From the NCBI GenBank assembly GCA_001412365.1, contig LKUE01000331.1, positions 1 through 36,218 of the forward strand: a stretch of 36,218 nucleotides of DNA. Reading direction: 5' to 3'. Source of the stretch: Desulfuromonas sp. SDB (GTDB lineage Bacteria; SDB-A). A program made the translations under genes and the position numbers. Of this stretch, positions 9,230 to 31,463 are shown in pieces; within the stretch, counting starts at the first letter, position 1; every line of letters starts with the position of its first letter. The notes beneath the pieces were generated by a model. That model saw nothing but the letters and a program-made list of their open reading frames with translations, made no database searches and had not been told where the DNA came from.

Positions 9230-9241
9230 AAGGAATAAAAT

Positions 9242-10105: not shown

Positions 10106-10159
10106 TTAATGATAAAACAATTAATAATTCCAGTTATCCCCTAACCCCAAGAGGTTTTT

Positions 10160-10384
10160 ATGGCAAAAAAAACTAAATATTTGTACATCAAAAAAAACTG
10201 GTGTAAACAATGCATGTTCTGTGTAGAGTTCTGTCCCCGGGATGTGATTGAAGTGGGTGAAGACGGTTATCCCAGGATAGTGGACATTACTAAATGCAGA
10301 GAATGCACTCTATGCATATCCCTCTGCCCTGAATTTGCAATTATCACCGAGCCTGAAGTAACAGAACAGTTAGAGGTGAGATAA
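10160..10384 (+). CDS. korD: 2-oxoacid (2-oxoglutarate-type):ferredoxin oxidoreductase, delta (ferredoxin) subunit
   Basis: A 74-residue two-cluster ferredoxin with CKQCMFCVEFCP and CRECTLCISLCP, each a C-x2-C-x2-C-x3-C-P motif for one [4Fe-4S] cluster. It relays electrons between the thiamine-diphosphate centre in KorB and external ferredoxin. The order D-A-B-C matches known 2-oxoglutarate oxidoreductase operons such as oorDABC of Helicobacter. An AAGAGGT site lies six bases before the ATG. Its TAA shares a base with the korA ATG (TAATG). Confidence 0.93.
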   Translation: MAKKTKYLYIKKNWCKQCMFCVEFCPRDVIEVGEDGYPRIVDITKCRECTLCISLCPEFAIITEPEVTEQLEVR

Positions 10385-11559: not shown

Positions 11560-12398
11560 TGCAGGATATTATTCATCAATATCTCCGCCCCTCTAAGAAA
11601 TTCCCTCATGTTTGGTGCCCCGGCTGCGGAGACGGAATTGTATTATCGGCAATTGTCAGAGCTATTCACAGTCTGGGAAAATCTAAAAATGAGACTGTAT
11701 TAGTTTCAGGAATCGGCTGTTCATCCCGTGCTCCGGTATATGTAGATTTTCCTGCTCTCCATGGGACCCATGGCAGGGCATTAGCTTTTGCCACCGGGAT
11801 TAAAATGGCTAATCCGGAATTAACTGTAGTGGTAATCACCGGAGATGGTGATGGTTTAGCTATCGGGGGCAATCATTTCATCCACGCCTGCCGCCGGAAT
11901 ATTGACATTACTGCAGTTGTATTCAACAACAGTATTTACGGGATGACCGGAGGTCAATACTCCCCCACCATGAAAGTAAACGATTATGGGGCTACCGCAC
12001 CTTACGGCAATATTGAAAGACCCTTTGATGTATGTGATTTAGCTTCTGCGGCCGGAGCAAATTTTGTGGCCAGAGCTACCGCCTACCATGCAATAATGCT
12101 GGAAAAATTCATTAAAATGGGCATTGCTAAAAAGGGACTATCCATTATTGATGTCATAACCCCCTGCCCTACACTATATAGCTTTTACAACAAAGCGGGA
12201 AAAAATATTGATATGATGGAAAGCATTCGCGATCGAACTATTACCATTCAAAAAGCGGAACAGTTATCGGATGCTGAAAAAGAGGATAAAATCGTGGTAG
12301 GAATTTTTGCTAATCGAGACTTTCCTGAATATACCGGAATATACAGTGATCTGATGGAGAGAGCTAAAAGGAGTGTAAAAGATGAAGAACTTCTATGA
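11556..12398 (+). CDS. korB: 2-oxoglutarate:ferredoxin oxidoreductase, beta (TPP-binding) subunit
   Basis: The 280-residue beta subunit binds thiamine diphosphate and Mg: the WCPGCGDGIV N-terminus, GDGDGLAIGGNH, and VVFNNSIYGMTGGQYSPT are the family signatures (GDG-NN TPP motif). Two ATG codons in a row (11556, 11559) are possible starts; AAGGAAAAA lies upstream. It overlaps korA by four and korC by 17 bases, so the four subunits are likely made in equal amounts. Confidence 0.95.
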   Translation: MMQDIIHQYLRPSKKFPHVWCPGCGDGIVLSAIVRAIHSLGKSKNETVLVSGIGCSSRAPVYVDFPALHGTHGRALAFATGIKMANPELTVVVITGDGDGLAIGGNHFIHACRRNIDITAVVFNNSIYGMTGGQYSPTMKVNDYGATAPYGNIERPFDVCDLASAAGANFVARATAYHAIMLEKFIKMGIAKKGLSIIDVITPCPTLYSFYNKAGKNIDMMESIRDRTITIQKAEQLSDAEKEDKIVVGIFANRDFPEYTGIYSDLMERAKRSVKDEELL

Positions 12399-12924
12399 AA
12401 TTAGGCTCAGCGGTTCGGGTGGACAAGGTCTGATAACCATGGGAATGATTATGGGGGAAGCAGCAGCCCTGTTTGACCATAAATATGTGGTTCAAACCCA
12501 GAGTTACGGTCCGGAAGCCAGGGGTGGTGCATGCAAAGCCGAATTAATTATTAGTAATTCCAGGGTGAATAATCCAAAACCAATAACTGTAGATATATTA
12601 TTAACTCTTTCCCAGCCTGCTTATGACAAATATATTCCGGATGTCAAACCGGGAGGGATTGTCATTATTGATTCATCCCTGGTTAAGTATAAAAAAGGGA
12701 AAGGAGTCTATCCTCTTCCCATAACTACTTTTGCGGAAAAAGATATTGGGTTAAAAGTGACTGCTAATGTGGTGGCTTTAGGAATCATCTGTTCTCTTAC
12801 CAAAGTGGTAAGTTATAATGCCCTGGAAAGAGCATTGTTGAACAGAATTCCTCCTGGCACTGAAAATATAAATAAAAAAGCGCTTAGCTTTGGCAAATCT
12901 TTAAAATTTAAAGATAACATTTAA
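12382..12924 (+). CDS. korC: 2-oxoglutarate:ferredoxin oxidoreductase, gamma subunit
   Basis: A 180-residue gamma-domain subunit with SGSGGQGLITMG near the N-terminus and the YVVQTQSYGPEARGGACKAE segment, both typical of the POR/KOR gamma family. It completes the DABC complex. A GGAG site lies inside the korB end. Twenty bases, including a strong AAGGAG, separate it from the fumarase genes. Confidence 0.94.
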   Translation: MKNFYEIRLSGSGGQGLITMGMIMGEAAALFDHKYVVQTQSYGPEARGGACKAELIISNSRVNNPKPITVDILLTLSQPAYDKYIPDVKPGGIVIIDSSLVKYKKGKGVYPLPITTFAEKDIGLKVTANVVALGIICSLTKVVSYNALERALLNRIPPGTENINKKALSFGKSLKFKDNI

Positions 12925-12944
12925 TGGGATAAGGAGAATTGTAA

Positions 12945-13790
12945 ATGCGAGAAATTAAGGTTTCCCAAATAACTGAGATAGTCAAGGATCTTTGTATTAA
13001 AGCTTGTACTGAACTAAATCCCGATGTTCAACAGGCAATTGCCCAAGCTCTGGAAAATGAACCTTCAGAAGCGGGGAAAGCGGTGTTAAGACAGCTACTG
13101 GACAACGCCGACATTGCCCGTTCAGAGAAAATCCCTATCTGTCAGGATACTGGTTTTACCGTGGTTTACCTGGAACTAGGTCAACAAGTCAACTTAACTG
13201 ACGGATCCCTGAACGATGCCATTAACCTGGGAGTGAAGCAGGGTTATACTGAGGGTTATTTGAGAAAATCCATAGTTAAAAATCCCCTGCTGGCTCCAGA
13301 AAATACCAAGGACAATACTCCTGCCATTATCCATACTGATATTGTCCCCGGAGACAAATTAAAAATTTCAGTACTTCCCAAGGGGGGAGGGTCTGAAAAT
13401 ATGAGTAGGATTAAAATGATGAAACCGGCGGATGGAGTGGAAGGAGTTAAGAACTTTGTCATAGAAACAGTAAATCAAGCCGGGGCAAATCCCTGTCCTC
13501 CCATTGTGGTTGGAGTAGGCATGGGGGGAACATTTGACCATGTCGCCTATTTAGCCAAAAAAACCCTGCTCCGGAAAATTGGGCAGAGAAATCCCGATCC
13601 CCGATTAGCGGAATTAGAAGTAGAATGGTTAAAAGAAGTTAATAAATTAGGAATCGGACCGGCAGGTTTGGGGGGCAGAACTACTGCTTTAGATTTATTT
13701 ATCGAAGAATTCCCCCGGCATATAGCCACTTATCCAGCAGCAGTTAATATTCAATGTCATGCTGATCGCTCAAAAACTTTTATTTTATAA
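12945..13790 (+). CDS. Class I (iron-sulfur) fumarate hydratase, alpha subunit (TtdA/FumA-N type)
   Basis: The N-terminal half of an oxygen-sensitive [4Fe-4S] fumarase that interconverts malate and fumarate. The 281 residues contain the expected cluster cysteines: Cys66 in IPICQDTG, Cys184 in ANPCPPIVVGVG and Cys271 in NIQCHADR, plus KGGGSENMS. Two-subunit class I hydratases act on fumarate or on tartrate; the TCA neighbours favour fumarate. Its stop is 12 bases before the beta subunit, with AAGGAGAT in between. Confidence 0.94.
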   Translation: MREIKVSQITEIVKDLCIKACTELNPDVQQAIAQALENEPSEAGKAVLRQLLDNADIARSEKIPICQDTGFTVVYLELGQQVNLTDGSLNDAINLGVKQGYTEGYLRKSIVKNPLLAPENTKDNTPAIIHTDIVPGDKLKISVLPKGGGSENMSRIKMMKPADGVEGVKNFVIETVNQAGANPCPPIVVGVGMGGTFDHVAYLAKKTLLRKIGQRNPDPRLAELEVEWLKEVNKLGIGPAGLGGRTTALDLFIEEFPRHIATYPAAVNIQCHADRSKTFIL

Positions 13791-13802
13791 CAAGGAGATA
13801 TC

Positions 13803-14357
13803 ATGGGTGCGGTTAAAATAAATACTCCACTAAACGATGAGGTAATTAAAACCTTAAATATCGGAATGGAGGTTTATCTTTCCGGTATTGTGTACACGGC
13901 AAGAGATGCAGCGCATAAGAAATTACTGGAGTTAATAGATAAAAATGAACAGCTGCCATTTGATATCCAGGGCAGTGTCATTTACTATGTGGGCCCATCT
14001 CCGGCTAAGCCTGGTCAACCCATCGGAGCAGCCGGTCCCACCACCAGTTATCGTATGGATCCATTTGTACCTGCCATGTTTGAAGCTGGAATGAAAGGTA
14101 TGATTGGTAAGGGTCAGCGCAGTCAACAGGTAATTGATTATATCAGCAAATATACCGGGGTTTATTTTGGAGCAACCGGAGGAGCAGCAGCGTTGTTGGC
14201 TAAATCAGTTAAAGCTGCTGAAGTTATCGCTTTCCCCGAACTAGGGGCAGAGGCAATAAGAAAACTGGAAGTACAGGATATGCCCTTAATTGTAATAAAC
14301 GATTGTTACGGCAAAGACTTATATCAACAAGGCCGTAGCAAATGGGCGATAAAGTAG
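13803..14357 (+). CDS. Class I fumarate hydratase, beta subunit (TtdB/FumA-C type)
   Basis: The C-terminal half of the split fumarase, 184 residues. Visible family segments: LSGIVYTARDAAHKKL near the N-terminus, IYYVGPSPAKPGQPIGAAGPTTSYRMDPF, MIGKGQRS, and GGAAALLAKSVKAAEVIAFPELGAEAI. It provides much of the active-site surface for the alpha-subunit cluster. The gene is followed after nine bases by the hydrogenase small subunit, so the redox genes sit in the same transcription unit. Confidence 0.94.
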   Translation: MGAVKINTPLNDEVIKTLNIGMEVYLSGIVYTARDAAHKKLLELIDKNEQLPFDIQGSVIYYVGPSPAKPGQPIGAAGPTTSYRMDPFVPAMFEAGMKGMIGKGQRSQQVIDYISKYTGVYFGATGGAAALLAKSVKAAEVIAFPELGAEAIRKLEVQDMPLIVINDCYGKDLYQQGRSKWAIK

Positions 14358-14366
14358 GTAGTAATT

Positions 14367-15347
14367 ATGAGTGAACAAAAGTTAAAACCTAAAGTTGCTT
14401 TTTACTGGTGCGCTTCCTGCGGAGGATGTGAAGAAGCAGTTGTTGATTTGGCAGAAGATATTTTAGATGTAGTGGAAAAAATTGACATAGTATTTTGGCC
14501 GGTGGCAATGGATTTTAAAAAGCAGGATGTGGAAAACTATTCAAATGGCGAAATTGCAGTGTCTTTCATCAATGGAGCGATAAGAACTGAGGAACAGCTG
14601 GAGATGGCCAGACTTCTACGAAAAAAATCCCAACTGGTCGTCGCTTTTGGATCTTGTTCCCACCTGGGAGGAATTCCAGGACTGGCTAATCTTTATTCCA
14701 GGGAAGATCTTTTTGACACCTATTATAATAAACTTCCTTCCAATGACAATCCCCGCAAGATATTACCTTTAACTGAAACTGAAACCGATAAAGGAACCAT
14801 AACCCTCCCCGAAATTCACCGAACAGTGAAAGCGTTAAATCAAGTAATCAATGTAGATTACTACCTTCCCGGCTGTGCTCCTCCTCCCGATCTCATTCTC
14901 AACGCTATCCAGGCAATTTTAGAAAATAACTTGCCTCCCCTCGGTTCAGTGTTGGCTCCGGAAAAATCATTATGCGATACCTGCCCCCGTAAAGATTCCA
15001 AACCGGATAAAATATTGATAAAAAAAATTAACCGGATTTCTCTAACTGAAATACCCCCGGATAAATGTTTCCTGGCGGAAGGAGTGATTTGCATGGGACC
15101 GGCAACCCGTTCCGGGTGCGGAGAAAGATGTATTAATGCTAATATGCCCTGCCGGGGATGTTTTGGCCCCACCAGTGCAGTTGAAGACCAAGGGGCAAAA
15201 TTTTTATCCGCCCTGACTTCGATAATTGACAGTGAAGATGAACAGGAAATAAAAGCCATTCTCGATTCAGTTATTGATCCTACCGGATTATTTTACATGT
15301 ACAGCTTAGCTTCATCAGTTAAGCGGAAGTACCAAGATTTCAAGTGA
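14367..15347 (+). CDS. mvhG: NiFe hydrogenase small subunit, MvhG type
   Basis: A 326-residue soluble small subunit that carries electrons from the NiFe site. The N-terminal CASCGGCEE motif and GSCSHLGGIPG, PGCAPPP give the proximal cluster; the C-terminal CDTCPRK and the CGERC-x6-C-x2-C array give further [4Fe-4S] clusters. There is no twin-arginine signal, so it stays in the cytoplasm, unlike uptake hydrogenases. The absence of a Tat signal and the presence of MvhD and HdrABC next door place it with the group 3c (F420-nonreducing, Hdr-linked) enzymes. Confidence 0.92.
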   Translation: MSEQKLKPKVAFYWCASCGGCEEAVVDLAEDILDVVEKIDIVFWPVAMDFKKQDVENYSNGEIAVSFINGAIRTEEQLEMARLLRKKSQLVVAFGSCSHLGGIPGLANLYSREDLFDTYYNKLPSNDNPRKILPLTETETDKGTITLPEIHRTVKALNQVINVDYYLPGCAPPPDLILNAIQAILENNLPPLGSVLAPEKSLCDTCPRKDSKPDKILIKKINRISLTEIPPDKCFLAEGVICMGPATRSGCGERCINANMPCRGCFGPTSAVEDQGAKFLSALTSIIDSEDEQEIKAILDSVIDPTGLFYMYSLASSVKRKYQDFK

Positions 15348-15354
15348 GGTAAAC

Positions 15355-16818
15355 ATGTCAGAAAGAATTGTAATTGATCCCATCACCAGATTAGAAGGAC
15401 ATGGGAAAATTGATATAATCCTGGATAAAAAGGGGAATGTTGATCAAGCTTATTTTCAAGTTCCCGAACTAAGAGGATTTGAAAAATTCTGCGAGGGAAG
15501 ACTAGCTGAAGAACTGCCCCGGATTACTCCTAAAATATGTGGAGTATGTCCCACTGCCCATCACATGGCTTCAGCAAAAGCCCTGGACGATTTGTACAAA
15601 GTAGAGCCTCCTCCCACTGCTAAATTGATAAGAGAAATGGTCAATTCCGCCTTCGTGTTTGAAGATCATATTCTACATTTCTTCTATCTGGGGGGACCTG
15701 ATTTTCTGGTAGGTCCCCAGCAGCATAAATCACAGCGAAACATCCTGGGAGTAATTTCCAAGGTGGGGGTGGATGCGGGAAAGAAAGTCATTGAAATTAG
15801 AAAAAAGATGAGAAATATAATCACCAAACAGGGAGGAAGGGTTATCCATCCGGTTTGTAATCTACCCGGGGGTGTTTCCAAAGGAGTAACTCCGGAAGAT
15901 CAAGCCCTGTACATTGAAACCGCCCAGCAAGCAATAGACTTTTCCCGATTTGCCCTGGAAGCATTTGAAAATTTAGTTTTAAAAAACGATGAATATCTGG
16001 AGTTGATTTCAGGGGACATTTACTATCTGGAAACTTACTACATGGGTCTGGTGGATGATCAAAACAAAGTAAATTTATACGACGGAAAGGTAAGAGTAGT
16101 AGATCCCCAGGGCAAGGAATTTGTTAAATTCGCACCTAAAGATTATCTAAAGCATGTTCGAGAGCATGTGGAAACATGGACTTATCCTAAATTCCCTTAT
16201 CTGAAAAAAGTAGGATGGAACGGATTTACCGATGGAATGGACAGCGGAATATTCAGAGTTGCTCCCCTGGCCAGGTTAAATGCAGCCGAAGGTATGGCTA
16301 CTCCCGCCGCTCAACAGGAATATGAAAAGATGTTCGACCAAATGGGAGGAAAACCATTACACCACACCCTTGCCTACCACTGGGCACGTTTAATTGAAGC
16401 TTTGTACGCAGCAGAAAGAGTAAAGCAGCTTGCTGAAGATTCCCGGATTACCGATCCCCACATAAGAAACATTCCTGAGTCCACCCCTGATGAAGGGGTG
16501 GGGATTGTCGAAGCCCCCCGGGGAACTCTTATTCATCATTATCAAACTGACCCTCAAGGTAAAATTACTCAAGCTAATCTGATTGTTGCCACCGTCCATA
16601 ACAATGCTGCCATTTGCATGTCTATCGAAAAAGCAGCAAAAAAGCTGATAAACAACCACAATATATCCGAAGGGATACTGAACATGGTGGAAATGGCTTT
16701 TCGGGCTTATGACCCCTGTTTCGCCTGCGCCTCTCATTCCCTGCCTGGTCAAATGCCCTTGATTGTTCAAATTTTTAATCATAACCATAATAAAATTGAT
16801 GAACTAAGAAGGGATTGA
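15355..16818 (+). CDS. mvhA: NiFe hydrogenase large subunit, MvhA type
   Basis: The catalytic subunit for reversible H2 oxidation. Its 487 residues contain the N-terminal RITPKICGVCPTAHH motif (Cys62, Cys65) and the C-terminal DPCFACASH motif (Cys455, Cys458), the four nickel ligands. Twenty-six residues follow His461 and would be cut off by the maturation protease encoded downstream. The start has GTGAGGTAA upstream; the stop overlaps the hdrC ribosome site. No selenocysteine is used. Confidence 0.95.
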   Translation: MSERIVIDPITRLEGHGKIDIILDKKGNVDQAYFQVPELRGFEKFCEGRLAEELPRITPKICGVCPTAHHMASAKALDDLYKVEPPPTAKLIREMVNSAFVFEDHILHFFYLGGPDFLVGPQQHKSQRNILGVISKVGVDAGKKVIEIRKKMRNIITKQGGRVIHPVCNLPGGVSKGVTPEDQALYIETAQQAIDFSRFALEAFENLVLKNDEYLELISGDIYYLETYYMGLVDDQNKVNLYDGKVRVVDPQGKEFVKFAPKDYLKHVREHVETWTYPKFPYLKKVGWNGFTDGMDSGIFRVAPLARLNAAEGMATPAAQQEYEKMFDQMGGKPLHHTLAYHWARLIEALYAAERVKQLAEDSRITDPHIRNIPESTPDEGVGIVEAPRGTLIHHYQTDPQGKITQANLIVATVHNNAAICMSIEKAAKKLINNHNISEGILNMVEMAFRAYDPCFACASHSLPGQMPLIVQIFNHNHNKIDELRRD

Positions 16819-16820
16819 AT

Positions 16821-17228
16821 ATGAATAACAAACTTACTTTGGAGAATATTCAACAGTTTGATCTGGATGAATTTCAGGAAATATCCGGAGAAAATATCTT
16901 TGCCTGCTATCAATGCGGCAATTGTTCTGCAGGCTGTCCGGCCGCAGACTTTATGGATCTAGCTCCCCATGAGGTGATTCGCCTGCTTCAACTTGGTCAA
17001 ATTGATGAAGTAGTTAAAACCAACACCGTGTGGATATGCGCTGCCTGTGTAACCTGTAGGGTAAGATGCCCCAAAGGGGTTGACCTGTCCAAGATAATGG
17101 AAGCAGTCCGGCAGATAGTTTTGCGTAAGAAAAACAATTATGTGGATTTAAATAAGATAGAATCTGAATTGAGAGAAAAACTTCCTCAAATCGCCCTGGT
17201 GGGCAATTTCAGAAAGTTTACTCTGTAG
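16821..17228 (+). CDS. hdrC: Heterodisulfide reductase subunit C (HdrC)
   Basis: A 135-residue ferredoxin-like subunit with CYQCGNCSAGCP and CAACVTCRVRCP, two [4Fe-4S] motifs separated by about 45 residues as in HdrC. It conducts electrons between HdrA and HdrB. The ORF track starts at TTG 16815; ATG 16821 with AAGAAGGGA seven bases upstream is the better start. There are no membrane segments, so this is the cytosolic HdrABC form, not HdrDE. Confidence 0.93.
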   Translation: MNNKLTLENIQQFDLDEFQEISGENIFACYQCGNCSAGCPAADFMDLAPHEVIRLLQLGQIDEVVKTNTVWICAACVTCRVRCPKGVDLSKIMEAVRQIVLRKKNNYVDLNKIESELREKLPQIALVGNFRKFTL

Positions 17229-17255: not shown

Positions 17256-18134
17256 ATGGAAATATCATATTATCCTGGTTGTACCCTGAAAACTTCAGCA
17301 AAAAATTATGAAAAAACAGGGTTAGCCTTACTTCCTATCTTTGATATCAGTCCAGTTGAAATCAAAGACTGGGTGTGCTGCGGAGCAACCTATTCTTTAA
17401 CCTCTGATAATTTAATGTACCAGCTTGCCCCTATTCGTACTTTAATCAGGGCTAAGGAATCAGGCAATCCCCGACTTCTGACTCTTTGCGACATGTGCTA
17501 CAACACCTTGAAGAGAGCCGCACTATTTATTGAAAATGATGAAGAAAAAAGAGAAAAAATTAAAAATTTCATGGATGAAGAAGAAACTGATTATCGGGGA
17601 GATGAAGTGGAGGTAGTGCATCTGTTAACTTTGCTCAATGAAATTGGTTCACAAAAAATTTCTGAAAAGCTGGTTAAATCTCCCCTGGACTTAAAAATTG
17701 CAACTTATTACGGATGTATGCTGCTTAGACCCAAAGAAATTCAAGCTGACTCTGCGGAAAACCCACAGTTAATGGAAAACATATTTCAAGGTATGGGAGT
17801 GGAAGTTGTTGAGTATCCTTTTAGAACTGAATGCTGCGGTTCTTATCAAATTGTCAACCGCAGGGAAATAATTTTGGATAGAACAAAAAAGATAATATCT
17901 TCCGCGGTTAAAAATAATGCTGATTTGATGGTGTTAAGCTGTCCTCTATGCGATTACAACTTAGAAGCCACCCAGAAAGAGCTAATCGAACAAGACAGTA
18001 ACTTTAAACCGCTTCCGGTTTTATATTTCTCTCAGCTGCTGGCTTTGATCCTGGGTATTGACCCTGAAATTAATGATTGGTCATTGCATAATATTGATCC
18101 TACACCAGTTTTAAAGAGGAAAGGTTTATTATGA
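17256..18134 (+). CDS. hdrB: Heterodisulfide reductase subunit B (HdrB), two CCG domains
   Basis: The 292-residue subunit has two complete cysteine-rich CCG domains: first YPGCTLK, WVCCGA, CDMCYNTL; second YYGCMLLRP, ECCGSYQ, SCPLCDYNL. In methanogens these bind two non-cubane [4Fe-4S] clusters that reduce the CoM-CoB heterodisulfide. Bacteria lack those cofactors, so the true substrate is unknown; a disulfide or a relay role toward the nearby fumarate reductase-like subunits is possible. GGAGGA precedes the ATG, and an ATGA overlap couples it to hdrA. Confidence 0.93.
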   Translation: MEISYYPGCTLKTSAKNYEKTGLALLPIFDISPVEIKDWVCCGATYSLTSDNLMYQLAPIRTLIRAKESGNPRLLTLCDMCYNTLKRAALFIENDEEKREKIKNFMDEEETDYRGDEVEVVHLLTLLNEIGSQKISEKLVKSPLDLKIATYYGCMLLRPKEIQADSAENPQLMENIFQGMGVEVVEYPFRTECCGSYQIVNRREIILDRTKKIISSAVKNNADLMVLSCPLCDYNLEATQKELIEQDSNFKPLPVLYFSQLLALILGIDPEINDWSLHNIDPTPVLKRKGLL

Positions 18135-20065
18135 AAAGGATAGGCGTTTTTATATGCCACTGTGGTATAAACATCGCGGGAACAGTGGATATTGAAAAGT
18201 TAACCTCACAAATCAAAGAATACCCTAATGTTGTTCACGTTGAAAACTATAAATACATGTGTTCTTCTCCCGGTCAGCAATTAATCAATCAGCAGATCAT
18301 GGACAAAAATCTTGATGCGGTGGTGGTTGCTGCCTGTTCACCCTCTCTTCATGAGAATACCTTCAGAACCTCAGTCCAGCGGGTGGAGATGAATCCCTAT
18401 AACTGCGAAATTGCCAATATTCGAGAGCAATGCAGCTGGGTACATGATGATAAACAAATTGCCACAGACAAAGCGGCGAAAATAATTAAGTCCATGGTGG
18501 AGAAAACTGTCCTGGATGAACCTTTAATGCCCATCACTGTACCCGTGAACAGAAAGGCATTGGTAATAGGGGGCGGAGTAGCAGGGATGCAGGCAGCTTT
18601 AAATATTGCCAATAACGGCTATGAGGTAATTTTAGTGGAAAGGGAATCTTCAATCGGCGGACACATGGCTATGTTATCGGAAACATTCCCCACCTTGGAT
18701 TGTTCTCAATGTATCCTTACTCCAAAGATGGTTGAAGTAGATCAGCATCCCAATATCACCTTAATAACTTATTCCGAAGTAGTTGAAGTTTCCGGATTTG
18801 TAGGAAATTTTAAAGTCAAGATAAAACAAAAGGCAAAATATGTGGATTGGGAGAAATGCAACGGATGCGGAGATTGTATTACCGAATGTCCTATCAATAC
18901 TCCCAGTGAATTTGAACAGCAGCTGGGAGAACGTCATGCCATCTACCGTCCGTTTCCCCAGGCAGTTCCCAATAAAGTAATTGTAGATATGGATGAATGC
19001 ATTCAGTGTATGGTTTGTCAGGTTTTCTGTCCCACTGATGCAATTGATTTTAACCAGAAAGATAGCATTGTTGAACAGGAAGTGGGGGCAATTGTTTTAG
19101 CTACCGGATATCAACTGTATTCTCTTAAAAATCTACCTGAATACGGAGGGGGAGAGATAGAGGATGTGATTGACGGTCTCGCCTTTGAAAGATTACTTTC
19201 CGCTTCCGGTCCTACCCAGGGCGTGGTTAAAAGACCTTCCGATGGGAAAATTCCCCAGGATGTCGTTTTTATCCAGTGCGCAGGTTCCCGGGATCCTGAA
19301 AACCATATGCCCTACTGTTCCCGAATTTGCTGTATGTATACAGCTAAGCATGCTATGCTGTACAAGCACAGAGTTCATCAGGGCAGAGCTTATATATTTT
19401 ACATGGATATCCGTTCCGGGGGCAAGGACTACGAAGAATTTGTGCAGAGAGTTATGGAAGAGGAACGGGTAGTATATCTGAGGGGCAAAGTATCCAGGTT
19501 ATATGAAGAAGATGGAAAAGTGGTGGTATGCGGAACGGATACCTTAACCCGCAGAAATGTGGAAATAAAAGCTGATTTGGTGGTTACCGCAACCCCCATC
19601 AGACCGATTGAGGATATTGATCAGTTATCCAAGCTTTTTAAAATCAGTATCAATCAAAATGGCTTTTTAACTGAAGCTCATCCCAAACTCCGACCGGTGG
19701 AATCGTTAACCTCCGGAATTTATTTAGCTGGCTGCGCTCAAGCCCCCCGGGACATCCCGGACACAGTTGCACAAGCCTCGGGAGCTGCTTCCATGGTTTG
19801 TGCTTTATTTTCCTCTGACCAGTTATATCATGATCCCATAATTGCAGGAGTAGATGAAGACCTCTGTTCAGGATGCGGTATCTGTGTAGGAGTTTGTCCT
19901 TACAGTGCTCGAACATTGAATCGTGAAAAAGGAATAGTGGAAGTCAATGAAGTGCTCTGTGAAGCATGCGGAGCATGCTCTGCCGCCTGTCCTTCCGGGG
20001 CAGCTCAGCAGAGAAATTTCACCGACATTCAGTTGAAAAACATGGTCAAGGCAATTCTTGGTTAA
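18131..20065 (+). CDS. hdrA: Heterodisulfide reductase subunit A (HdrA), bifurcating flavoprotein
   Basis: HdrA carries the FAD that splits electron pairs in the MvhADG-HdrABC complex. The 644 residues show: an N-terminal ICHCGINIAG domain; a thioredoxin-reductase-like FAD domain with VIGGGVAGMQAAL and LVERESSIGGHMA (from about 138); an inserted ferredoxin with CNGCGDCITECP and CIQCMVCQVFCP; and a C-terminal ferredoxin with CSGCGICVGVCP and CEACGACSAACP. All cluster motifs are intact and the length is that of stand-alone archaeal HdrA. This integrity supports a working bifurcating or confurcating flavin site. Confidence 0.95.
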   Translation: MKRIGVFICHCGINIAGTVDIEKLTSQIKEYPNVVHVENYKYMCSSPGQQLINQQIMDKNLDAVVVAACSPSLHENTFRTSVQRVEMNPYNCEIANIREQCSWVHDDKQIATDKAAKIIKSMVEKTVLDEPLMPITVPVNRKALVIGGGVAGMQAALNIANNGYEVILVERESSIGGHMAMLSETFPTLDCSQCILTPKMVEVDQHPNITLITYSEVVEVSGFVGNFKVKIKQKAKYVDWEKCNGCGDCITECPINTPSEFEQQLGERHAIYRPFPQAVPNKVIVDMDECIQCMVCQVFCPTDAIDFNQKDSIVEQEVGAIVLATGYQLYSLKNLPEYGGGEIEDVIDGLAFERLLSASGPTQGVVKRPSDGKIPQDVVFIQCAGSRDPENHMPYCSRICCMYTAKHAMLYKHRVHQGRAYIFYMDIRSGGKDYEEFVQRVMEEERVVYLRGKVSRLYEEDGKVVVCGTDTLTRRNVEIKADLVVTATPIRPIEDIDQLSKLFKISINQNGFLTEAHPKLRPVESLTSGIYLAGCAQAPRDIPDTVAQASGAASMVCALFSSDQLYHDPIIAGVDEDLCSGCGICVGVCPYSARTLNREKGIVEVNEVLCEACGACSAACPSGAAQQRNFTDIQLKNMVKAILG

Positions 20066-20087
20066 CCTTGTAGAGAAGGGATTAAAT

Positions 20088-20498
20088 ATGTATGAACCTA
20101 AGATAGTTGCATTTTTTTGTAAATGGTGTACTTCTGCCGGAGCTGACCTGGCCGGAACATCCCGGCTTAAATATCCCCCCAATGTGGTGGGAATCAGGGT
20201 AATGTGTTCCAGCCGGATTGATCCCGAACATATTATGGCTGCTTTCCGCAATGGAGCAGACGGAGTTTTCATCGGGGGATGCCACCCCGGGGATTGTCAT
20301 TATCAAACCGGTAATTATCAGACTTTAAAAAGGATAACCTTGCTTAAACAGATGATTGAAGATTTAGGAATAAATCCCCAACGGTTAAGATTGGAATGGA
20401 TATCCGCGGCAGAAGGTCAACGGTTTTCCGAAATAATAAAAGAATTTACCCAACAGGTAAAAAATCTAGGTCAATTAAAAAGTGAACCATTGCAGTGA
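20088..20498 (+). CDS. mvhD: F420-nonreducing hydrogenase iron-sulfur subunit D (MvhD)
   Basis: MvhD links the hydrogenase to HdrA through a [2Fe-2S] cluster. The 136 residues match the family well: FFCKWCTSAGADLAG, IRVMCSSRIDP, and GADGVFIGGCHPGDCHY with the clustered cysteines. The track start (TTG 20058) lies inside hdrA; ATG 20088 with AGAAGGGA upstream gives the family N-terminus. Its presence is the key reason for calling the hydrogenase Hdr-linked. Confidence 0.94.
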   Translation: MYEPKIVAFFCKWCTSAGADLAGTSRLKYPPNVVGIRVMCSSRIDPEHIMAAFRNGADGVFIGGCHPGDCHYQTGNYQTLKRITLLKQMIEDLGINPQRLRLEWISAAEGQRFSEIIKEFTQQVKNLGQLKSEPLQ

Positions 20499-20505
20499 TA
20501 TTTTT

Positions 20506-21012
20506 ATGAGCCAAACCAAGAAAATAATTGTAGGTATGGGAAATTCCATTCTTGGAGACGACGGTTTAGGATGTTACATCACCTCCCGGCTTCAACAGGA
20601 AAACCTGGATTATCAAATTGTAACCTCACCCTCATCCGGTTTCAACTTAGCTGATCATATTATTGATAAAGATCAAGCAGTTTTTATCGATTCAATTATA
20701 ACCGGCAAGCATAACCCTGGTGATGTTATCACTTACTGTTTGGAAGATTTTAAATCCTGTCAACCATTCAGCATCCATTCAACTGACCTGGCAAATGCAA
20801 TTCAACTCTATCAGAAGTTCAATATTCCCATTCCCTCCCAGATTTTATTTATTGCAGTTGAAGTAAAGGATAACTACACCTTTAAAGAAAATTTCAGTCC
20901 GGAAATCAGTGAAAATATTGATCATATCTACAATCAGGTAAAATTTAAAATATTTGATTTTTTTAGCTGCACTAACCGAGTTAAAGAATACAAAGGAGGA
21001 ATTAATGGCTAA
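20506..21012 (+). CDS. NiFe hydrogenase maturation protease (HycI/HyaD family)
   Basis: The endopeptidase that trims the C-terminus of the large subunit after nickel insertion. The 168-residue form begins MSQTKKIIVGMGNSILGDDGLG, the conserved GxGNxxxxDDGxG signature with the nickel-sensing acidic residue, followed by FIDSI and SIHSTDL where further metal-binding Asp and His occur. The track uses GTG 20482, overlapping mvhD; ATG 20506 starts closer to the family core, though neither has a strong ribosome site. Its target is presumably MvhA. No hyp accessory genes are in the window. Confidence 0.88.
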   Translation: MSQTKKIIVGMGNSILGDDGLGCYITSRLQQENLDYQIVTSPSSGFNLADHIIDKDQAVFIDSIITGKHNPGDVITYCLEDFKSCQPFSIHSTDLANAIQLYQKFNIPIPSQILFIAVEVKDNYTFKENFSPEISENIDHIYNQVKFKIFDFFSCTNRVKEYKGGING

Positions 21013-21772
21013 GCAAGAACATCAGAATATTATGGATAAGATTGCTTCAGCAAATAAATCAGTAACTACCGGGGTTGATGAAAAGGATATTGAGCACTGG
21101 GTAACCATATACATCATGGGAGACGAATATAAAGTCCCTGCTGATCTTACCATTATGCAAGCGATGGAATTTGCCGGTTTTAAATTCACTCGATCCTGCG
21201 GCTGTCGGGCAGGCTTTTGCGGAGCCTGCTCTACAGTGTACCGATTAAAAAATGATTACAAGCTTCAAACGGATATGGCCTGCCAGACCAGGGTTCAAGA
21301 CGGAATGTTTTTAGTTCAGATCCCCTTTGCCCCTGCAGATAAAGCAGCTTACCTTATTAATGAGGAAACTTATCAACCAAATATTTTCATCAAGTACTAT
21401 CCGGAAATAGCCAGATGTGTTTCCTGCAATACATGTACTAAAGCATGCCCTCAAGACTTACAGGTGATGGATTACATCCAGGCAGCATTGCGGGGAGATT
21501 TTGCCAGAGTGGCTGAACTTTCCTTTGACTGCATACAATGCGGTCTTTGTGCAATTAGATGTCCTGCGGAAATTGTCCATTATCATGTGGCTCAGTTAGG
21601 CAGAAGAATGTACTCAGTACATGGATTGAAAAAAGAAGAAAATGTTGAAAACAGAGTCAAAGAAATTGAAAAGGGAAAGTTTAACCAGGATTTCAAAAAA
21701 TTCCTGGATATGGATGAACAAGAAATCAAACAAGCCTACCGGGATCAACAAAAATCAAAAGAAGTTTACTGA
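21005..21772 (+). CDS. Fumarate reductase/succinate dehydrogenase iron-sulfur-type subunit with HdrC-like C-terminal half
   Basis: A 255-residue electron-transfer protein. The N-terminal domain is a plant-type [2Fe-2S] ferredoxin fold with Cys67, Cys72, Cys75 and Cys93 (CGCRAGFCGAC...C). The C-terminal half has CVSCNTCTKACP (138-149) and CIQCGLCAIRCP (176-187). Both are full [4Fe-4S] motifs; in SdhB/FrdB the second motif lacks its second cysteine and holds a [3Fe-4S] cluster. The 38-residue spacing resembles HdrC. A perfect AAAGGAGGA precedes ATG 21005; the longer track ORF is not needed. A role as wire between HdrABC and the FrdA-like protein is inferred. TfrB of methanogens, which combines FrdB-like and HdrB-like parts, is the closest described analogy. 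Confidence 0.85.
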   Translation: MAKQEHQNIMDKIASANKSVTTGVDEKDIEHWVTIYIMGDEYKVPADLTIMQAMEFAGFKFTRSCGCRAGFCGACSTVYRLKNDYKLQTDMACQTRVQDGMFLVQIPFAPADKAAYLINEETYQPNIFIKYYPEIARCVSCNTCTKACPQDLQVMDYIQAALRGDFARVAELSFDCIQCGLCAIRCPAEIVHYHVAQLGRRMYSVHGLKKEENVENRVKEIEKGKFNQDFKKFLDMDEQEIKQAYRDQQKSKEVY

Positions 21773-21809: not shown

Positions 21810-23477
21810 ATGGCTAAAAAGTACACCCTGATCAACGGATATCCTGAATATATGAGGGAATCAATAAAGTTGGTGGAGAAAACCAGGAATAAACGGGTGG
21901 GAAAACTTCCCAAGCCCATGACCTTGGAAGAAAGAGATGAACTGCTAAATCTGTGCCATCCAGATTATGCACCAGGGGGTAAAAGGAAAATTTCAGTAGG
22001 AGTAAATCAGGGAGATATTGCTCCCAATGAGGTAGCTGATCTTCTGGAATCAAAACCTTTAGTAGATTCCAAAGATATTGATCTAACCAAACCTGATTTT
22101 GAAACTGATTTGTTGATCATAGGAGGTGGTTTAGCCGGAACTTCAGCCGCCTTGCTGGCTAATGATAATGGAATTCCCGCTGAAAAAATTTTGCTGGTGA
22201 ACAAACTCAGACATGGAGACTCCAACTCAATTATGGCTCAAGGAGGAACTCAAGCTGCCGACCGGCCTAATGATTCACCGGCTATTCATTTCATTGATGC
22301 CCTGGGGGGTGGGCATTTTACCAATAAACCAGAAGTGTTAAAAGCTTTAGTGGAAGAAGCTCCCTTATCAATCAAATGGCTATGTGATTTAGGGGTACTT
22401 TTTGATCGTGAGCCAGATGGAAGTTTTACCGAACTTTCCGGAGGGGGGACTTCCCGAAAGAGAATGCATGCCTGCCGTGACTATACCGGTATGGAAGAAT
22501 TAAGGGTAATAAGAGATGAGTTCAGAAGCAGGAATATCCCTTTCCTGGAATTTTACCCTGCTATTGAACTGCTCACTGATCCTGAAAACGGTAAAGTAAC
22601 CGGTGCTTTACTGTGGGGACTGGAAACCAAAGAATACATGGTGGTAAAAGCTAAAGCCACCATAATGGCTACCGGAGGTTTTGGAAGGCTGCATATCCGG
22701 GGATTCCCCACCACCAATCATTACGGAGCCACCTATGACGGAGCAGTAATTGCCTATCGGGCTGGAGCTAAGCTGAGAGATACGGACACTGTTCAGTATC
22801 ATCCTACGGGAGCTGCTTATCCTCAACAGATAATTGGACTATTGCTTACTGAAAAATTACGCACCAGTGGTGCTCAGCCTTTGAATAAAAAAGGAGAGTC
22901 ATTTGTTTATCCTTTGGAACCCAGAGATGTTGAGGCATCCGCATTCATCCGGGAATGCTATATCAATGATAACGGAGTGTCCACTCCTTCCGGAATGAAA
23001 GGCATTTGGCTGGATACTCCCATGATTGACCTGGTCAAGGGCAAAGGAGCGACTGCTAAATCCTTTCCCGGGATGATAAGAATGTTCAACCGTTTTGGCA
23101 TTGATATGACTAAAGATCCGGTGCTGGTCTTTCCCACCCTTCATTATCAAAATGGAGGGATTGAAACTGATCCTGGTGGTAAAACCAATATCCCCGGTTT
23201 ATTTGTGGCAGGAGAGGTTTCCGGAGGGGTTCACGGCAAGAACCGTTTAATGGGAAATTCCACTTTGGACTGCATTGTTTTCGGAAGAATCTCCGGGGTG
23301 GAAGCAGCTCAATATATAAAATCCTGCAAAGGCAAAGACAAACTTTCCCTTAATCATATTGACAATTGGAATCAACAACTCATTAATGCTAAAATTAAAT
23401 CACCACTCAAGGCACCTATACTGTTTCCGGAATACCGGGGTAAAGCAGTACTGGCTAGAATGATAGATATTTTTTAA
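21810..23477 (+). CDS. FrdA/SdhA-family flavoprotein, probable soluble fumarate reductase catalytic subunit
   Basis: The 555-residue protein (ATG 21810 behind AAAAAGGAG) has a roughly 95-residue N-terminal extension, then the FAD-binding LLIIGGGLAGTSAAL. The residues that handle fumarate/succinate in FrdA are all present: His331 (YHPTG), Arg372 (PRD), His445 (HYQNGG) and Arg479 (KNRLMGNS). At the position of the His that binds FAD covalently in FrdA/SdhA there is Asn139 (DSNSIMAQGG), so FAD should be non-covalent. The C-terminus after the NRLMGNS block is short, lacking most of the SdhA helical tail. No SdhC/SdhD membrane genes occur. L-aspartate oxidase is the alternative family reading, but the iron-sulfur partner and TCA context argue for fumarate. 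Confidence 0.85.
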   Translation: MAKKYTLINGYPEYMRESIKLVEKTRNKRVGKLPKPMTLEERDELLNLCHPDYAPGGKRKISVGVNQGDIAPNEVADLLESKPLVDSKDIDLTKPDFETDLLIIGGGLAGTSAALLANDNGIPAEKILLVNKLRHGDSNSIMAQGGTQAADRPNDSPAIHFIDALGGGHFTNKPEVLKALVEEAPLSIKWLCDLGVLFDREPDGSFTELSGGGTSRKRMHACRDYTGMEELRVIRDEFRSRNIPFLEFYPAIELLTDPENGKVTGALLWGLETKEYMVVKAKATIMATGGFGRLHIRGFPTTNHYGATYDGAVIAYRAGAKLRDTDTVQYHPTGAAYPQQIIGLLLTEKLRTSGAQPLNKKGESFVYPLEPRDVEASAFIRECYINDNGVSTPSGMKGIWLDTPMIDLVKGKGATAKSFPGMIRMFNRFGIDMTKDPVLVFPTLHYQNGGIETDPGGKTNIPGLFVAGEVSGGVHGKNRLMGNSTLDCIVFGRISGVEAAQYIKSCKGKDKLSLNHIDNWNQQLINAKIKSPLKAPILFPEYRGKAVLARMIDIF

Positions 23478-24150: not shown

Positions 24151-25494
24151 ATGGCGGAAAAGTACAATGTAGAAGAATTGCTGGCAAAAGCAAAAAAGCC
24201 AGCTGCTGATGCGATGAAATTACACCCCTATTACCAAGGTAAATTAGAAGTTACCACTAAATGCAGAGTAAAAGACTTCAATGATTTCGCAATTTGGTAC
24301 ACTCCGGGAGTAGCTGCTCCCTGCAGGGATATCCACAGCAATCCGGAAAAAATATTTGAACACACCAATAAGGGAAATTTCGTGGCGGTTGTATCTGATG
24401 GCACCAGGGTACTGGGACTAGGAGATATTGGTCCACATGCTGCCATGCCGGTGATGGAAGGAAAGGCTATCTTGTTTAAATATTTAGGAGGAGTAGATGC
24501 ATTCCCCATCTGCCTGGATACCAAAGATCCCCAGGATATAATTAAAACCTGTAAATTAATTGAACCCTGCTTCGGAGGGATTAACCTTGAAGATATAGCC
24601 AAGCCCAAATGCTTCCGCATACTGGACACACTCCGGAAGGAAATGAAAATTCCGGTATGGCATGATGATCAGCAGGGTACTGCTGCAATTACTCTGGCAG
24701 GATTACTTAATGCAATTAAAATCGTAGGCAAGAAAAAAGAAGATGTTCGGATTACCATGATCGGAGCGGGAGCTTCCAATATTGCCATTTCCAGAGTCAT
24801 GATTTCAGCCGGATTCCCTCCTGAAAATATAATCATGGTTGACACTAAGGGGACTTTGCACAAGGGCAGGAACGATCTCAATAACGATGAAAATAGAGAG
24901 AAATGGCATATGTGTGAAATTTCCAATAAAAAACAGCTTAAAGGTGGAATTGCAGAAGCACTTAAAGGAGCTGATGTCAGTATATCTCTGTCTAAACCAG
25001 GACCAGGAACAATTAAACCTGAATGGATTTCGGAGATGGCAGATGATGCAATTGTTTTCGCCTGTGCCAATCCAGTTCCGGAAATATGGCCGTGGGAAGC
25101 AAAACAAGCTGGAGCCAGAATAGTTTCTACCGGAAGATCTGATTTCCCCAACCAGGTAAATAATTCTCTGGGTTTCCCCGGAATATTCAGAGGAACCCTG
25201 GATGTTTATGCCAAGACCATTACCGATGAGATGTGTATAGCCGCAGCTGAAGAATTAGCTAAATGTGCGGAAGACAAAGGATTAAGAGATGATTATATTG
25301 TACCAACCATGGATGAATGGGAAGTATTCCCCCGGGAAGCAGTAGCAGTAGCATTAAAAGCTATTGAACAGGGAGTAGCCAGAATTTCCATGACTAAGGA
25401 ACAGTTGTATGAAAAAGCCAGTTCAATTATAAAAAGAGCCCGAAAAGAAACTGAAGTACTGATGAAGGAAGGCTTGATAAAGATGGGAGAGTAA
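24151..25494 (+). CDS. Malic enzyme (NAD(P)-dependent malate dehydrogenase, decarboxylating)
   Basis: Interconverts malate with pyruvate plus CO2. The 447 residues belong to the short bacterial form without the C-terminal phosphotransacetylase-like domain. Landmarks: YTPGVAAPCRDI, SDGTRVLGLGDIGPHAAMPVMEGKA, CFGGINLEDIAKPKCF, PVWHDDQQGTAAIT with the metal-binding Asp pair, the Rossmann segment ITMIGAGASNIAI, and CANPVPEIWP. An AAAGGAG site precedes the ATG. It ends the operon; its stop codon lies in the loop of a strong hairpin. With the neighbouring fumarase it links pyruvate to the fumarate-succinate segment. Confidence 0.95.
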   Translation: MAEKYNVEELLAKAKKPAADAMKLHPYYQGKLEVTTKCRVKDFNDFAIWYTPGVAAPCRDIHSNPEKIFEHTNKGNFVAVVSDGTRVLGLGDIGPHAAMPVMEGKAILFKYLGGVDAFPICLDTKDPQDIIKTCKLIEPCFGGINLEDIAKPKCFRILDTLRKEMKIPVWHDDQQGTAAITLAGLLNAIKIVGKKKEDVRITMIGAGASNIAISRVMISAGFPPENIIMVDTKGTLHKGRNDLNNDENREKWHMCEISNKKQLKGGIAEALKGADVSISLSKPGPGTIKPEWISEMADDAIVFACANPVPEIWPWEAKQAGARIVSTGRSDFPNQVNNSLGFPGIFRGTLDVYAKTITDEMCIAAAEELAKCAEDKGLRDDYIVPTMDEWEVFPREAVAVALKAIEQGVARISMTKEQLYEKASSIIKRARKETEVLMKEGLIKMGE

Positions 25495-28977: not shown

Positions 28978-29784
28978 TTACCTCCTCATCACACTTTTTA
29001 CGGTCATTGAAATGAAGTAAATCAAAGTCCCAGAAGTCACCATAGTCGCTCCGGGTGGGGTTTTCAGAAAATAGGAAAGAAACAGTCCGCCCACTATGAT
29101 AAATAAATTAAATACTATGCCCCACCAAATAATCCCCCGGTAATTGCTACTCAGCAATGAGCCAAAACTTGCGGGTAAAACCACTAGTGCGGAAACCAAA
29201 ATAATGCCCACCATTTTCATACTCACTACAATTATGGCGGCAAGAAGAAATAGCATAATTGTATCCAGTAATCCAACAGAAACTCCGCTGATTGTAGCAA
29301 CTTCTTCATCAAAAGTCAGAAATAATATCCGGTTGAAAAAAAATAAAATTAAAAACAGAAAAATCATCAGCAAGCCCAAAGCAGTCCAGATGTCAAAAGA
29401 TCTTATTCCTAAAATATTGCCGAATAAATATCCGGTTAAATCAAAATTGTAATTCTGTTTCAGCTTAATCAGCACAGCCCCTAAAGCCATGGCAAATGAA
29501 AAGTAGATGCCAATACTGGTATTAAGGCTAATTTTTCCATATTTTGATACTTTACCGATTATTATTGCCGAAAAAAGGCAAAAAACTAATGCGGTAAAGA
29601 ACGGATTTAAGTTAAAAAGAATACCCAGGGCGACTCCTCCAAAAGCAGTATGCGAAATTCCCACTCCTAAAAAAGCCATCTTCCGGGAAACAATGAAAAA
29701 TGAAAATATTCCAAACAAAATGCTTAAAATAAAGCTAATTAAAACTGCATTTCTGAAAAAATTAAGATTTAATAAAGTGATCAT
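28978..29784 (-). CDS. Metal ABC transporter permease (ZnuB/MntB family)
   Basis: An inner-membrane subunit with about eight hydrophobic segments, including FFRNAVLISFILSILFGIFSFFIV and FILVSALVVLPA-type family stretches (here IILVSALVVLPASFG). The ISHTAFGGVALG segment is a hallmark of zinc/manganese permeases. ATG 29784 gives 268 residues, the family size; the ORF track runs back to 29835, and GTG 29805 is another option. None has a strong ribosome site. It overlaps the ATPase gene by 23 bases. Zinc or manganese cannot be separated by sequence. Confidence 0.92.
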   Translation of the reverse strand: MITLLNLNFFRNAVLISFILSILFGIFSFFIVSRKMAFLGVGISHTAFGGVALGILFNLNPFFTALVFCLFSAIIIGKVSKYGKISLNTSIGIYFSFAMALGAVLIKLKQNYNFDLTGYLFGNILGIRSFDIWTALGLLMIFLFLILFFFNRILFLTFDEEVATISGVSVGLLDTIMLFLLAAIIVVSMKMVGIILVSALVVLPASFGSLLSSNYRGIIWWGIVFNLFIIVGGLFLSYFLKTPPGATMVTSGTLIYFISMTVKSVMRR

Positions 29785-30571
29785 GATTTTTTTTACAAGT
29801 TTCACACTCTTTATCGTGATAAAGAAAATTGACATTCTTACCGAAAACTTCCTCTAAAGCATGAGAAGGAATACAATTTTCAGGCTTGCCGTGGTAGTGA
29901 ATCTTTACTTTCAAACAGGCAATCCTGTCAATGAACAAGGACACCGACCCAATATCATGGGAAACCATGATGATTCCCAATCCAATCTGGTCACGTAATT
30001 TAACCAGAAGATGGTAAAAATTATCCTGGGCAACCATATCCAGTCCGGTTGATGGCTCGTCTAAAATCAGCATTTCTGGCTTTACAGCTAAAGCACGGGC
30101 AATTAAAACCCTCTGTTTCTGTCCCCCTGAAAGATTGCTGAAGTGTTCACTGCGGTAATCTATCATGTCCACAACTTCCAGTGCCTGGAAAATAATATTT
30201 TTATCTTCAGAATTTAACTTCTCCCACCATCCCTTTTGAGCATATCTGGACATAGATACTACATCCTCAACATTAACCGGGAAATTCTGATCATATTGTG
30301 TTCTCTGGGGAAGATAGCCAATGCACCCCTTCTTTCTGTAGTTGATGCACTGATCAAACTCTATTTTTCCTCTATACGGTTTAATTAGACCTAGTATCGC
30401 CCTTATTAATGTGGTTTTTCCTCCTCCATTGGGGCCAACTATAGATAAAATTTCCTTAGATTTAAGCTTTAGGTTAATTTCTTTTAATACAACGTGGTCA
30501 TTGAACTTAACCCATAAATCCTCGACTCTTACCAGAATTTTTTCGCTGTCAGTATTATTTAAGTGCTTCAT
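29762..30571 (-). CDS. Metal ABC transporter ATP-binding protein (ZnuC/MntA family)
   Basis: The 269-residue ATPase has Walker A GPNGGGKT (46-53), Q-loop YLPQRTQYD, signature LSGGQKQ (147-153), Walker B MLILDEP (167-173), and the switch His in VSHD (204-206). The C-terminal tail is unusual: YHDKECETCKKNHDHF has two Cys and three His in a short stretch, which could bind zinc and modulate activity. It overlaps the binding-protein gene by 17 bases and the permease gene by 23. Confidence 0.94.
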   Translation of the reverse strand: MKHLNNTDSEKILVRVEDLWVKFNDHVVLKEINLKLKSKEILSIVGPNGGGKTTLIRAILGLIKPYRGKIEFDQCINYRKKGCIGYLPQRTQYDQNFPVNVEDVVSMSRYAQKGWWEKLNSEDKNIIFQALEVVDMIDYRSEHFSNLSGGQKQRVLIARALAVKPEMLILDEPSTGLDMVAQDNFYHLLVKLRDQIGLGIIMVSHDIGSVSLFIDRIACLKVKIHYHGKPENCIPSHALEEVFGKNVNFLYHDKECETCKKNHDHFIKS

Positions 30572-31463
30572 ATAAAGTCGTTAAATTAAATTTCATTGTT
30601 TTTAAATAAGTTGATCTCTGTTCATCTTCTGGATCGCCGATGGCATCCAATCTAATCAATCTGCCACCAATTTCATCAGCCAGGGTTTGAGCAACCGGAT
30701 TTTCCATATTTAAACCAATTACCACTAACTTAACCTGATTTTCCTTTGCCTGCTCAATTAAATCTTCCATCTGGCTTATAGAAGGCTGATCTCCATGTCC
30801 GGACTCAATAGTGCCAATAATCTTTAAATTGTAATCAGATGCCAGATAATCCCAAGCAGGATGCCATTGGATGAATTTGTTATTTTCAATATCTGTGAAT
30901 AATAATTCAGCTTGATTATTCAGATCTTCAATTTCACTTAGATACTCTTGCAAGTTGCCTTGATAAAAGTATTTACGCATGCTATCCTTTTCGGATACAA
31001 TCTTCTCGACAAATATCACTATTGTCCTTGCATGATTCAGGGAAAGCCAGATATGGGGATTACGGTGTGCGTCTACATCTAAACAACTATCAGATAAATA
31101 AAAATTTTCCACATGAGAAGGCAGAAATTGTTCAACCCATCCGTCAAAGTCAGGATCAATTCCCAGATATATATCCACCCGGGAAAGAACAATTACTTCA
31201 TCAGGAGAAGGTTCGAATATATGAGGGTTGGCTCCAGGGGGAATTATATAGATAACTTCAACACTGTCGCCGGTTATGTTATGCACCATGTCGTAAACAG
31301 GAAAAATTGAAGTTGCTATCACCAGGCGGTCATCATCGGGGGGTGAACCGATCTGTGAACATCCCACTGCCAGTAATAAGATAAATGTTTGAATACCGAG
31401 CTTCACTATTATTTCGAAATTGCACAATTTATGGTATTTTTTTCTTAAATTATTGTATTTCAT
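30555..31463 (-). CDS. Metal ABC transporter substrate-binding lipoprotein (ZnuA/TroA family)
   Basis: The first gene of the transporter operon. The 302 residues start with a basic segment and a hydrophobic stretch ending in LLAVGC, a lipobox-like site with Cys35, so it is likely a lipoprotein facing the periplasm or cell surface. Family landmarks: IATSIFPVYDMV, PPGANPHIFEPSP with metal-binding His81, NPHIWLS with His137, and QWHPAWDYLA with His201; the fourth ligand is probably an Asp near 273-277. The His-rich loop common in zinc-specific ZnuA is nearly absent. Zinc or manganese are both possible. Confidence 0.92.
   Translation of the reverse strand: MKYNNLRKKYHKLCNFEIIVKLGIQTFILLLAVGCSQIGSPPDDDRLVIATSIFPVYDMVHNITGDSVEVIYIIPPGANPHIFEPSPDEVIVLSRVDIYLGIDPDFDGWVEQFLPSHVENFYLSDSCLDVDAHRNPHIWLSLNHARTIVIFVEKIVSEKDSMRKYFYQGNLQEYLSEIEDLNNQAELLFTDIENNKFIQWHPAWDYLASDYNLKIIGTIESGHGDQPSISQMEDLIEQAKENQVKLVVIGLNMENPVAQTLADEIGGRLIRLDAIGDPEDEQRSTYLKTMKFNLTTLYEALK

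Follow-up and report, generated by a model that had tools for sequence, protein, structure and literature searches.

In the window, as we call the whole 36,218-nucleotide stretch of Desulfuromonas sp. SDB DNA analysed here, the gene frdB (21005-21772, forward strand) encodes a 255-amino-acid FrdB-like iron-sulfur subunit, most likely a wire protein that connects an Hdr complex splitting hydrogen with a soluble fumarate reductase and passes electrons from the former to the latter. We propose, with a probability of about 0.6, that FrdB is the electron-transfer subunit of soluble FrdBA and that this enzyme serves as the high-potential outlet of HdrABC-MvhADG, in a bifurcation of electrons from H2 to ferredoxin and fumarate. 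The proposal starts from the cluster ligands of FrdB, the catalytic residues kept in its partner FrdA and a conserved gene set, each of which is observed directly in the sequences.

The translation of frdB is free of internal stops, and its start, preceded by a good ribosome-binding site (AAAGGAGG), overlaps the 3' end of the hydrogenase maturation protease gene by 8 bases. Cysteines occur at positions 65, 67, 72, 75, 93, 138, 141, 144, 148, 176, 179, 182 and 186. They form a plant-type [2Fe-2S] motif (C67, C72, C75 and C93; 21203-21283) followed by two full CxxCxxCxxxC(P) motifs, namely [4Fe-4S] motif I (C138/C141/C144/C148-P, 21416-21451) and motif II (C176/C179/C182/C186-P, 21530-21565; CIQCGLCAIRCP, residues 176-187), all on the forward strand. 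These 12 ligand positions are cysteine in 86/86 homologues, so the pattern is due neither to chance nor to sequencing error; C65, tried as an extra ligand, was rejected (cysteine in only 27/86). Motif II takes the place of the [3Fe-4S] motif of SdhB, which in E. coli reads C206-x5-C212-x3-C216; the classical C-x5-C-x3-CP pattern is replaced by C176-x2-C179-x2-C182-x3-C186 in every one of the 86 homologues. The invariant ligands and the two four-cysteine motifs lead to a firm prediction of one [2Fe-2S] and two [4Fe-4S] clusters, as the initial annotation had proposed. The four-cysteine motif is also found in 6 of 30 proteins scoring above the SdhB cut-off and thus cannot by itself set FrdB apart from SdhB. 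The gap between the two motifs is 27 residues in 85 of 86 homologues, the exception being a protein without the proline demanded by the search pattern, and measures 32-34 residues in the HdrC proteins of the same loci and 44-46 in SdhB (n=30). The spacing is therefore nearer to that of HdrC than to that of SdhB, as first suggested, although 27 residues fall short of the HdrC range; the gap equals that of CdhA, which aligns with FrdB gap-free across this stretch.

The relationship of FrdB to SdhB and HdrC was assessed with sequence profiles. All curated models matched it below their cut-offs, with 24 bits for dhsB (cut-off 88), 29.5 for TfrB (385), 25.5 for HdrC (350) and 41.9 for RnfC (246); across 64 FrdB members, the RnfC, TfrB, CdhA and dhsB models gave weak matches to all, and the HdrC model TIGR03290 matched 43. 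Fer2_4/Fer2 and Fer4_8/9/17 are the Pfam domains found in FrdB, and Fer2_3 appeared in just 1/64 members (E 4e-4). Over the whole length, hhalign returned an E-value of 9.6e-16 with SdhB (237 columns) versus 2.6e-13 with HdrC, the [2Fe-2S] domain and the helical dicluster domain being co-linear with the SdhB/FrdB architecture, and the SdhB HMM outscored the HdrC HMM on 69 of 86 members. The SdhB profile used here was built from 31 sequences; a single E. coli SdhB set against the FrdB profile gave a weak and misaligned match. When the halves were compared separately, the N-terminal one matched SdhB only (5e-9), whereas the C-terminal one preferred HdrC (6e-12) to SdhB (1.2e-8), so that the HdrC-like character previously given to this half withstood the profile check. 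A profile match between HdrC and the C-terminal part of SdhB (7.5e-17) argues for one fold family and not for a fusion. Judged by these alignments, FrdB has the SdhB fold, with a dicluster half that is predicted to resemble HdrC and its relatives in being compact and holding two [4Fe-4S] clusters. Calling it an HdrC-like hybrid is a fair description of the C-terminal half, but the protein is an SdhB homologue over its whole length, and SdhB and HdrC share their fold. Nor is it an HdrC, its score and spacing lying outside the model cut-off and the 32-34 range of that family, and a separate HdrC gene being present at 16815-17228. Fold searches gave low full-length TM-scores (0.2-0.3) with mixed matches to RnfC, SdhB and HdrC, the latter at 3.0 A over 83 columns, and were used solely to back the predicted domain types.

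The genes of the window surrounding frdB lie on the same strand in the order SucC, SucD, KorA, KorB, KorG, FumA, FumB, MvhG, MvhA, HdrC, HdrB, HdrA, MvhD, protease, FrdB, FrdA, acetyltransferase and malic enzyme. The succinyl-CoA, 2-oxoglutarate and fumarate enzymes (SucC to FumB, 8081-14357) are upstream of a complete HdrABC-Mvh gene set of the electron-bifurcating type. It comprises the small subunit MvhG of a group 3c type [NiFe] hydrogenase (14367-15347; best NCBIfam match VhuG, below cut-off), the large subunit MvhA (15355-16818) with its KICGVC and DPCFACASH ligand motifs, HdrC (16815-17228; TIGR03290, below cut-off), HdrB (17256-18134) with two CCG (non-cubane cluster) motifs, the FAD-containing HdrA (18131-20065; 808 bits with the HdrA2 model), which is the candidate bifurcating subunit, and MvhD (FlpD; 20085-20498, PF02662). 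HdrB scored 157.8 bits with the SdhE model of methylmenaquinol:fumarate reductase, marginally above the 152.9 of the HdrB model, and both CCG motifs are kept in 65/67 relatives. The maturation protease (20482-21012; TIGR00072, above cut-off), FrdA (21810-23477) and the malic enzyme (24151-25494; subfamily model, below cut-off) complete the region. On the reverse strand, a ZnuABC-like ABC transporter set (periplasmic metal-binding protein, ATPase and permease; 28978-31463) was recognised by eye only.

The link of FrdB to Hdr rests on gene context. The best 80 of 573 relatives in GTDB genomes were retrieved, and include WOR-3, Bipolaricaulota, Thermoplasmata, Bathyarchaeota, Heimdallarchaeota and Anaerolineae, among others. 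Across bacteria and archaea, 51 of 84 loci have HdrB encoded immediately before frdB, with MvhD, HdrA or Flox genes upstream in 15 more, and frdA follows frdB immediately in 79. A sample of 386 genomes, not selected by FrdB similarity, gave a frdB match in 38; Hdr/MvhD genes were present in 21 of 29 close-family regions and Flox genes only in 2 more. Most of the TCA-hydrogenase-Hdr-Frd set of the window recurs in five regions (L141, L145, L146, L148 and L154), and plasmid pILYOP01 of Ilyobacter polytropus (L008:1-10347) carries aspartase-HdrB-HdrC-HdrA-MvhD-Flox-FrdB-FrdA. Ilyobacter polytropus is a cultured fusobacterium, in which the complete HdrBCA-MvhD-Flox-FrdBA operon adjoins aspartase on a megaplasmid. 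FrdB covers positions 19-82 of the TfrB model and HdrB positions 263-475, a Rosetta-stone sign that both together are the counterpart of a single fused protein; a CCG part is absent from FrdB in all homologues. The contact with Hdr assumed by the initial annotation is thus supported, through gene context and not through cluster content. The accompanying argument, that a lower potential suits FrdB to Hdr rather than to quinone, does not hold by itself: Wolinella 8-methylmenaquinol:fumarate reductase (MFR), for which a second [4Fe-4S] cluster is likewise predicted, nevertheless oxidises 8-methylmenaquinol via SdhE (PMC2680327). A quinone partner is therefore compatible with this cluster content, and a sequence does not reveal redox potentials.

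Some points of this context speak against joining FrdBA to Hdr. The window frdB does not adjoin hdrB, from which hdrA, mvhD and the protease gene keep it apart, and some relatives (L130, L151, L149, L153) have other genes, or no clear Hdr gene, nearby. A small 2x[4Fe-4S] protein precedes FrdBA in place of Hdr genes in L130:1623-4606 (G037) and L151:7858-11660 (G316), and multihaem cytochrome c genes lie by FrdBA instead of Hdr in two genomes (for the L130 group, the cytochrome gene is in L006), which suggests that a FrdBA module of this type can be fed by a membrane or cytochrome donor. No clear Hdr gene was found near frdB in L149 and L153. A more distant FrdBA subfamily (L123-L128, L009), with FrdB 28-35% identical, also occurs in Cupriavidus-type aerobes, and Hdr genes are absent nearby. 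Three species from the family of the window genome (G001-G003) have neither FrdB nor an ordinary SdhB, indicating that the cluster was gained or lost within the family.

FrdA is a 555-residue FrdA/TfrA-like flavoprotein whose true start is at 21810, the mechanical open reading frame starting at 21642. In fold and sequence it matches the fumarate reductase of E. coli and flavoproteins related to it (best fold match FrdA 1kf6), with TfrA as its nearest curated model (284 bits, cut-off 718). It has an additional N-terminal part of about 95 residues, and the SdhA/FrdA match ends ahead of the C-terminal helical domain. The E. coli FrdA catalytic residues H232, E245, R248, R287, H355 and R390 correspond to H331, E348, R351, R372, H445 and R479, invariant or nearly so in the family; the position aligned with T244, another residue with a functional role in the E. 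coli enzyme, is likewise conserved. L-aspartate oxidase was considered as the identity of FrdA and rejected on context and on the best fold and model matches (E. coli FrdA, TfrA), which make it the less probable identity. The histidine that links FAD in E. coli FrdA (H44) is Asn in 76/76 FrdA proteins (N139 in the window), and the FAD is predicted to be bound non-covalently. Enzymes without this histidine reduce fumarate and do not oxidise succinate: variants of E. coli QFR and yeast SQR with non-covalent FAD no longer oxidise succinate, and MFR does not do so either (PMC2680327). The invariant Asn thus favours fumarate reduction. Neither a second SdhA/FrdA-like gene nor any SdhB was found in the 98.7% complete genome.

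The closest known systems share parts of this arrangement. The TfrAB thiol:fumarate reductase of methanogens is soluble as well, and provides the nearest curated model for FrdA and the one whose parts FrdB and HdrB divide between them; it differs in that TfrB unites the iron-sulfur and CCG parts in one chain, whereas in the window HdrB supplies the CCG part as a protein of its own within the Hdr-hydrogenase complex, and in scores far under the Tfr cut-offs (284 of 718 for FrdA and 29.5 of 385 for FrdB). E-type SdhABE enzymes, including MFR (Wolinella, Acidianus), have as their hallmark a second [4Fe-4S] cluster replacing [3Fe-4S], together with an Hdr-related, HdrB-like SdhE, and MFR also has the non-covalent FAD predicted here (PMC2680327). 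FrdB shows the ligands for [2Fe-2S], [4Fe-4S] and a second [4Fe-4S] and has an HdrB-like partner gene, as in E-type SdhB; the differences are that those enzymes are quinone-linked, that MFR is periplasmic, and that SdhB models do not recognise FrdB at cut-off. By gene list rather than sequence, a Cloacimonadota cluster in Ca. Celaenobacter shares TFR, OGOR, fumarase, SucCD, Mvh and Hdr with the window; its authors proposed a functional link, which they read through CoM-S-S-CoB (PMC8542988). Fumarate reductase genes that share an operon or cluster with HdrABC, and a proposed bifurcating link, are also reported for Pseudoclostridium thermosuccinogenes, where Koendjbiharie et al. put forward a fumarate reductase linked to ferredoxin, with Flx-Hdr (PMC7282089, citing a 2019 preprint), and for tubeworm symbionts and Thioflavicoccus, where a complex of tfrAB, korABCD and flxABCD-hdrABC was suggested by Rubin-Blum et al. 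(PMC6315080). In these, likened to the window by description and not by sequence, the donor is NADH (Flx) instead of a [NiFe] hydrogenase. The FrdBA-Hdr kind is thus already known: the gene set occurs widely among anaerobic members of both Bacteria and Archaea, and the Hdr-fumarate reductase idea is published, while the literature searched held no biochemical proof for this family. What is new here is the ligand invariance, the CCG-less FrdB with HdrB in place of that part, the predicted non-covalent flavin and the cross-domain context counts.

In the mechanism that we propose, electrons from H2 would enter at MvhA/G, pass to MvhD and reach the flavin of HdrA, where they would part. One half, at low potential, would reduce ferredoxin, and the other half would travel via HdrC/HdrB to FrdB ([4Fe-4S] II, [4Fe-4S] I, [2Fe-2S]) and to the non-covalent FAD of FrdA, where fumarate would be reduced to succinate; HdrB would take the place held by the CCG part of TfrB, or by SdhE, in other E-type enzymes. 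The net reaction would be 2 H2 + fumarate + 2 Fd(ox) -> succinate + 2 Fd(red). That the proteins touch, the order in which electrons move, the bifurcation and the direction are what we infer from the observations above. With H2 as donor, textbook potentials put the free-energy sum per fumarate at -70 to -85 kJ under standard conditions; at 10 Pa H2 it is still downhill, at -24 to -39 kJ. The reduced ferredoxin could be used by Rnf, which is present in the genome. Fumarate reduction for succinate/propionate formation or for reductive 2-oxoglutarate synthesis fits best, and syntrophic oxidation is possible.

As a part of syntrophic propionate or glutamate oxidation, the complex could also run in reverse, with FrdA oxidising succinate and HdrABC-Mvh confurcating its electrons with those of reduced ferredoxin to form H2. 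We regard this as unlikely. The genome encodes a methylmalonyl-CoA mutase, which makes propionate oxidation through succinate possible and is a point against our preferred reading; Rnf is present, citrate synthase is absent, and SucCD/Kor/Fum/malic enzyme could work oxidatively, but the invariant Asn at the flavin site and its consequence for succinate oxidation (PMC2680327) argue for the opposite direction, which is downhill even at 10 Pa H2.

More doubtful still is a division of labour in which HdrABC-Mvh reduces a soluble disulfide and FrdBA acts separately as a methanogen-like thiol:fumarate reductase. The two CCG motifs that HdrB retains in 65/67 loci leave room for a thiol or disulfide substrate, FrdA is closest to TfrA, and TFR is how such genes are annotated in the literature (PMC8542988); yet the CCG domain, the thiol-oxidising part of TfrB, is missing from FrdB in every homologue. 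That FrdB is an ordinary SdhB-type subunit of a quinone-linked succinate:quinone oxidoreductase is highly improbable: it matches the SdhB profile over its full length, but its 24 of 88 bits are far under the model cut-off, an SdhC/D-like gene is absent nearby, and a search for the futalosine route, as distinct from the classical men pathway, found no menaquinone gene.

Beyond this genome, there is about an even chance that FrdB marks a distinct cross-domain docking module, which would turn H2- or NADH-fed HdrABC bifurcators into fumarate reductases and define a class of flavin-based electron-bifurcating enzymes whose high-potential acceptor is fumarate, with a range that takes in Fusobacteriota, candidate bacterial phyla, Thermoplasmata, Bathyarchaeota and Heimdallarchaeota. 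The cultured Ilyobacter polytropus, with its operon by aspartase, makes the bifurcation idea testable. If it is true, fumarate reduction would need neither membrane nor quinone to conserve energy, which would be stored in reduced ferredoxin for use by Rnf or Kor, and it would explain the HdrABC acceptor in many organisms thought to be without coenzymes M and B.
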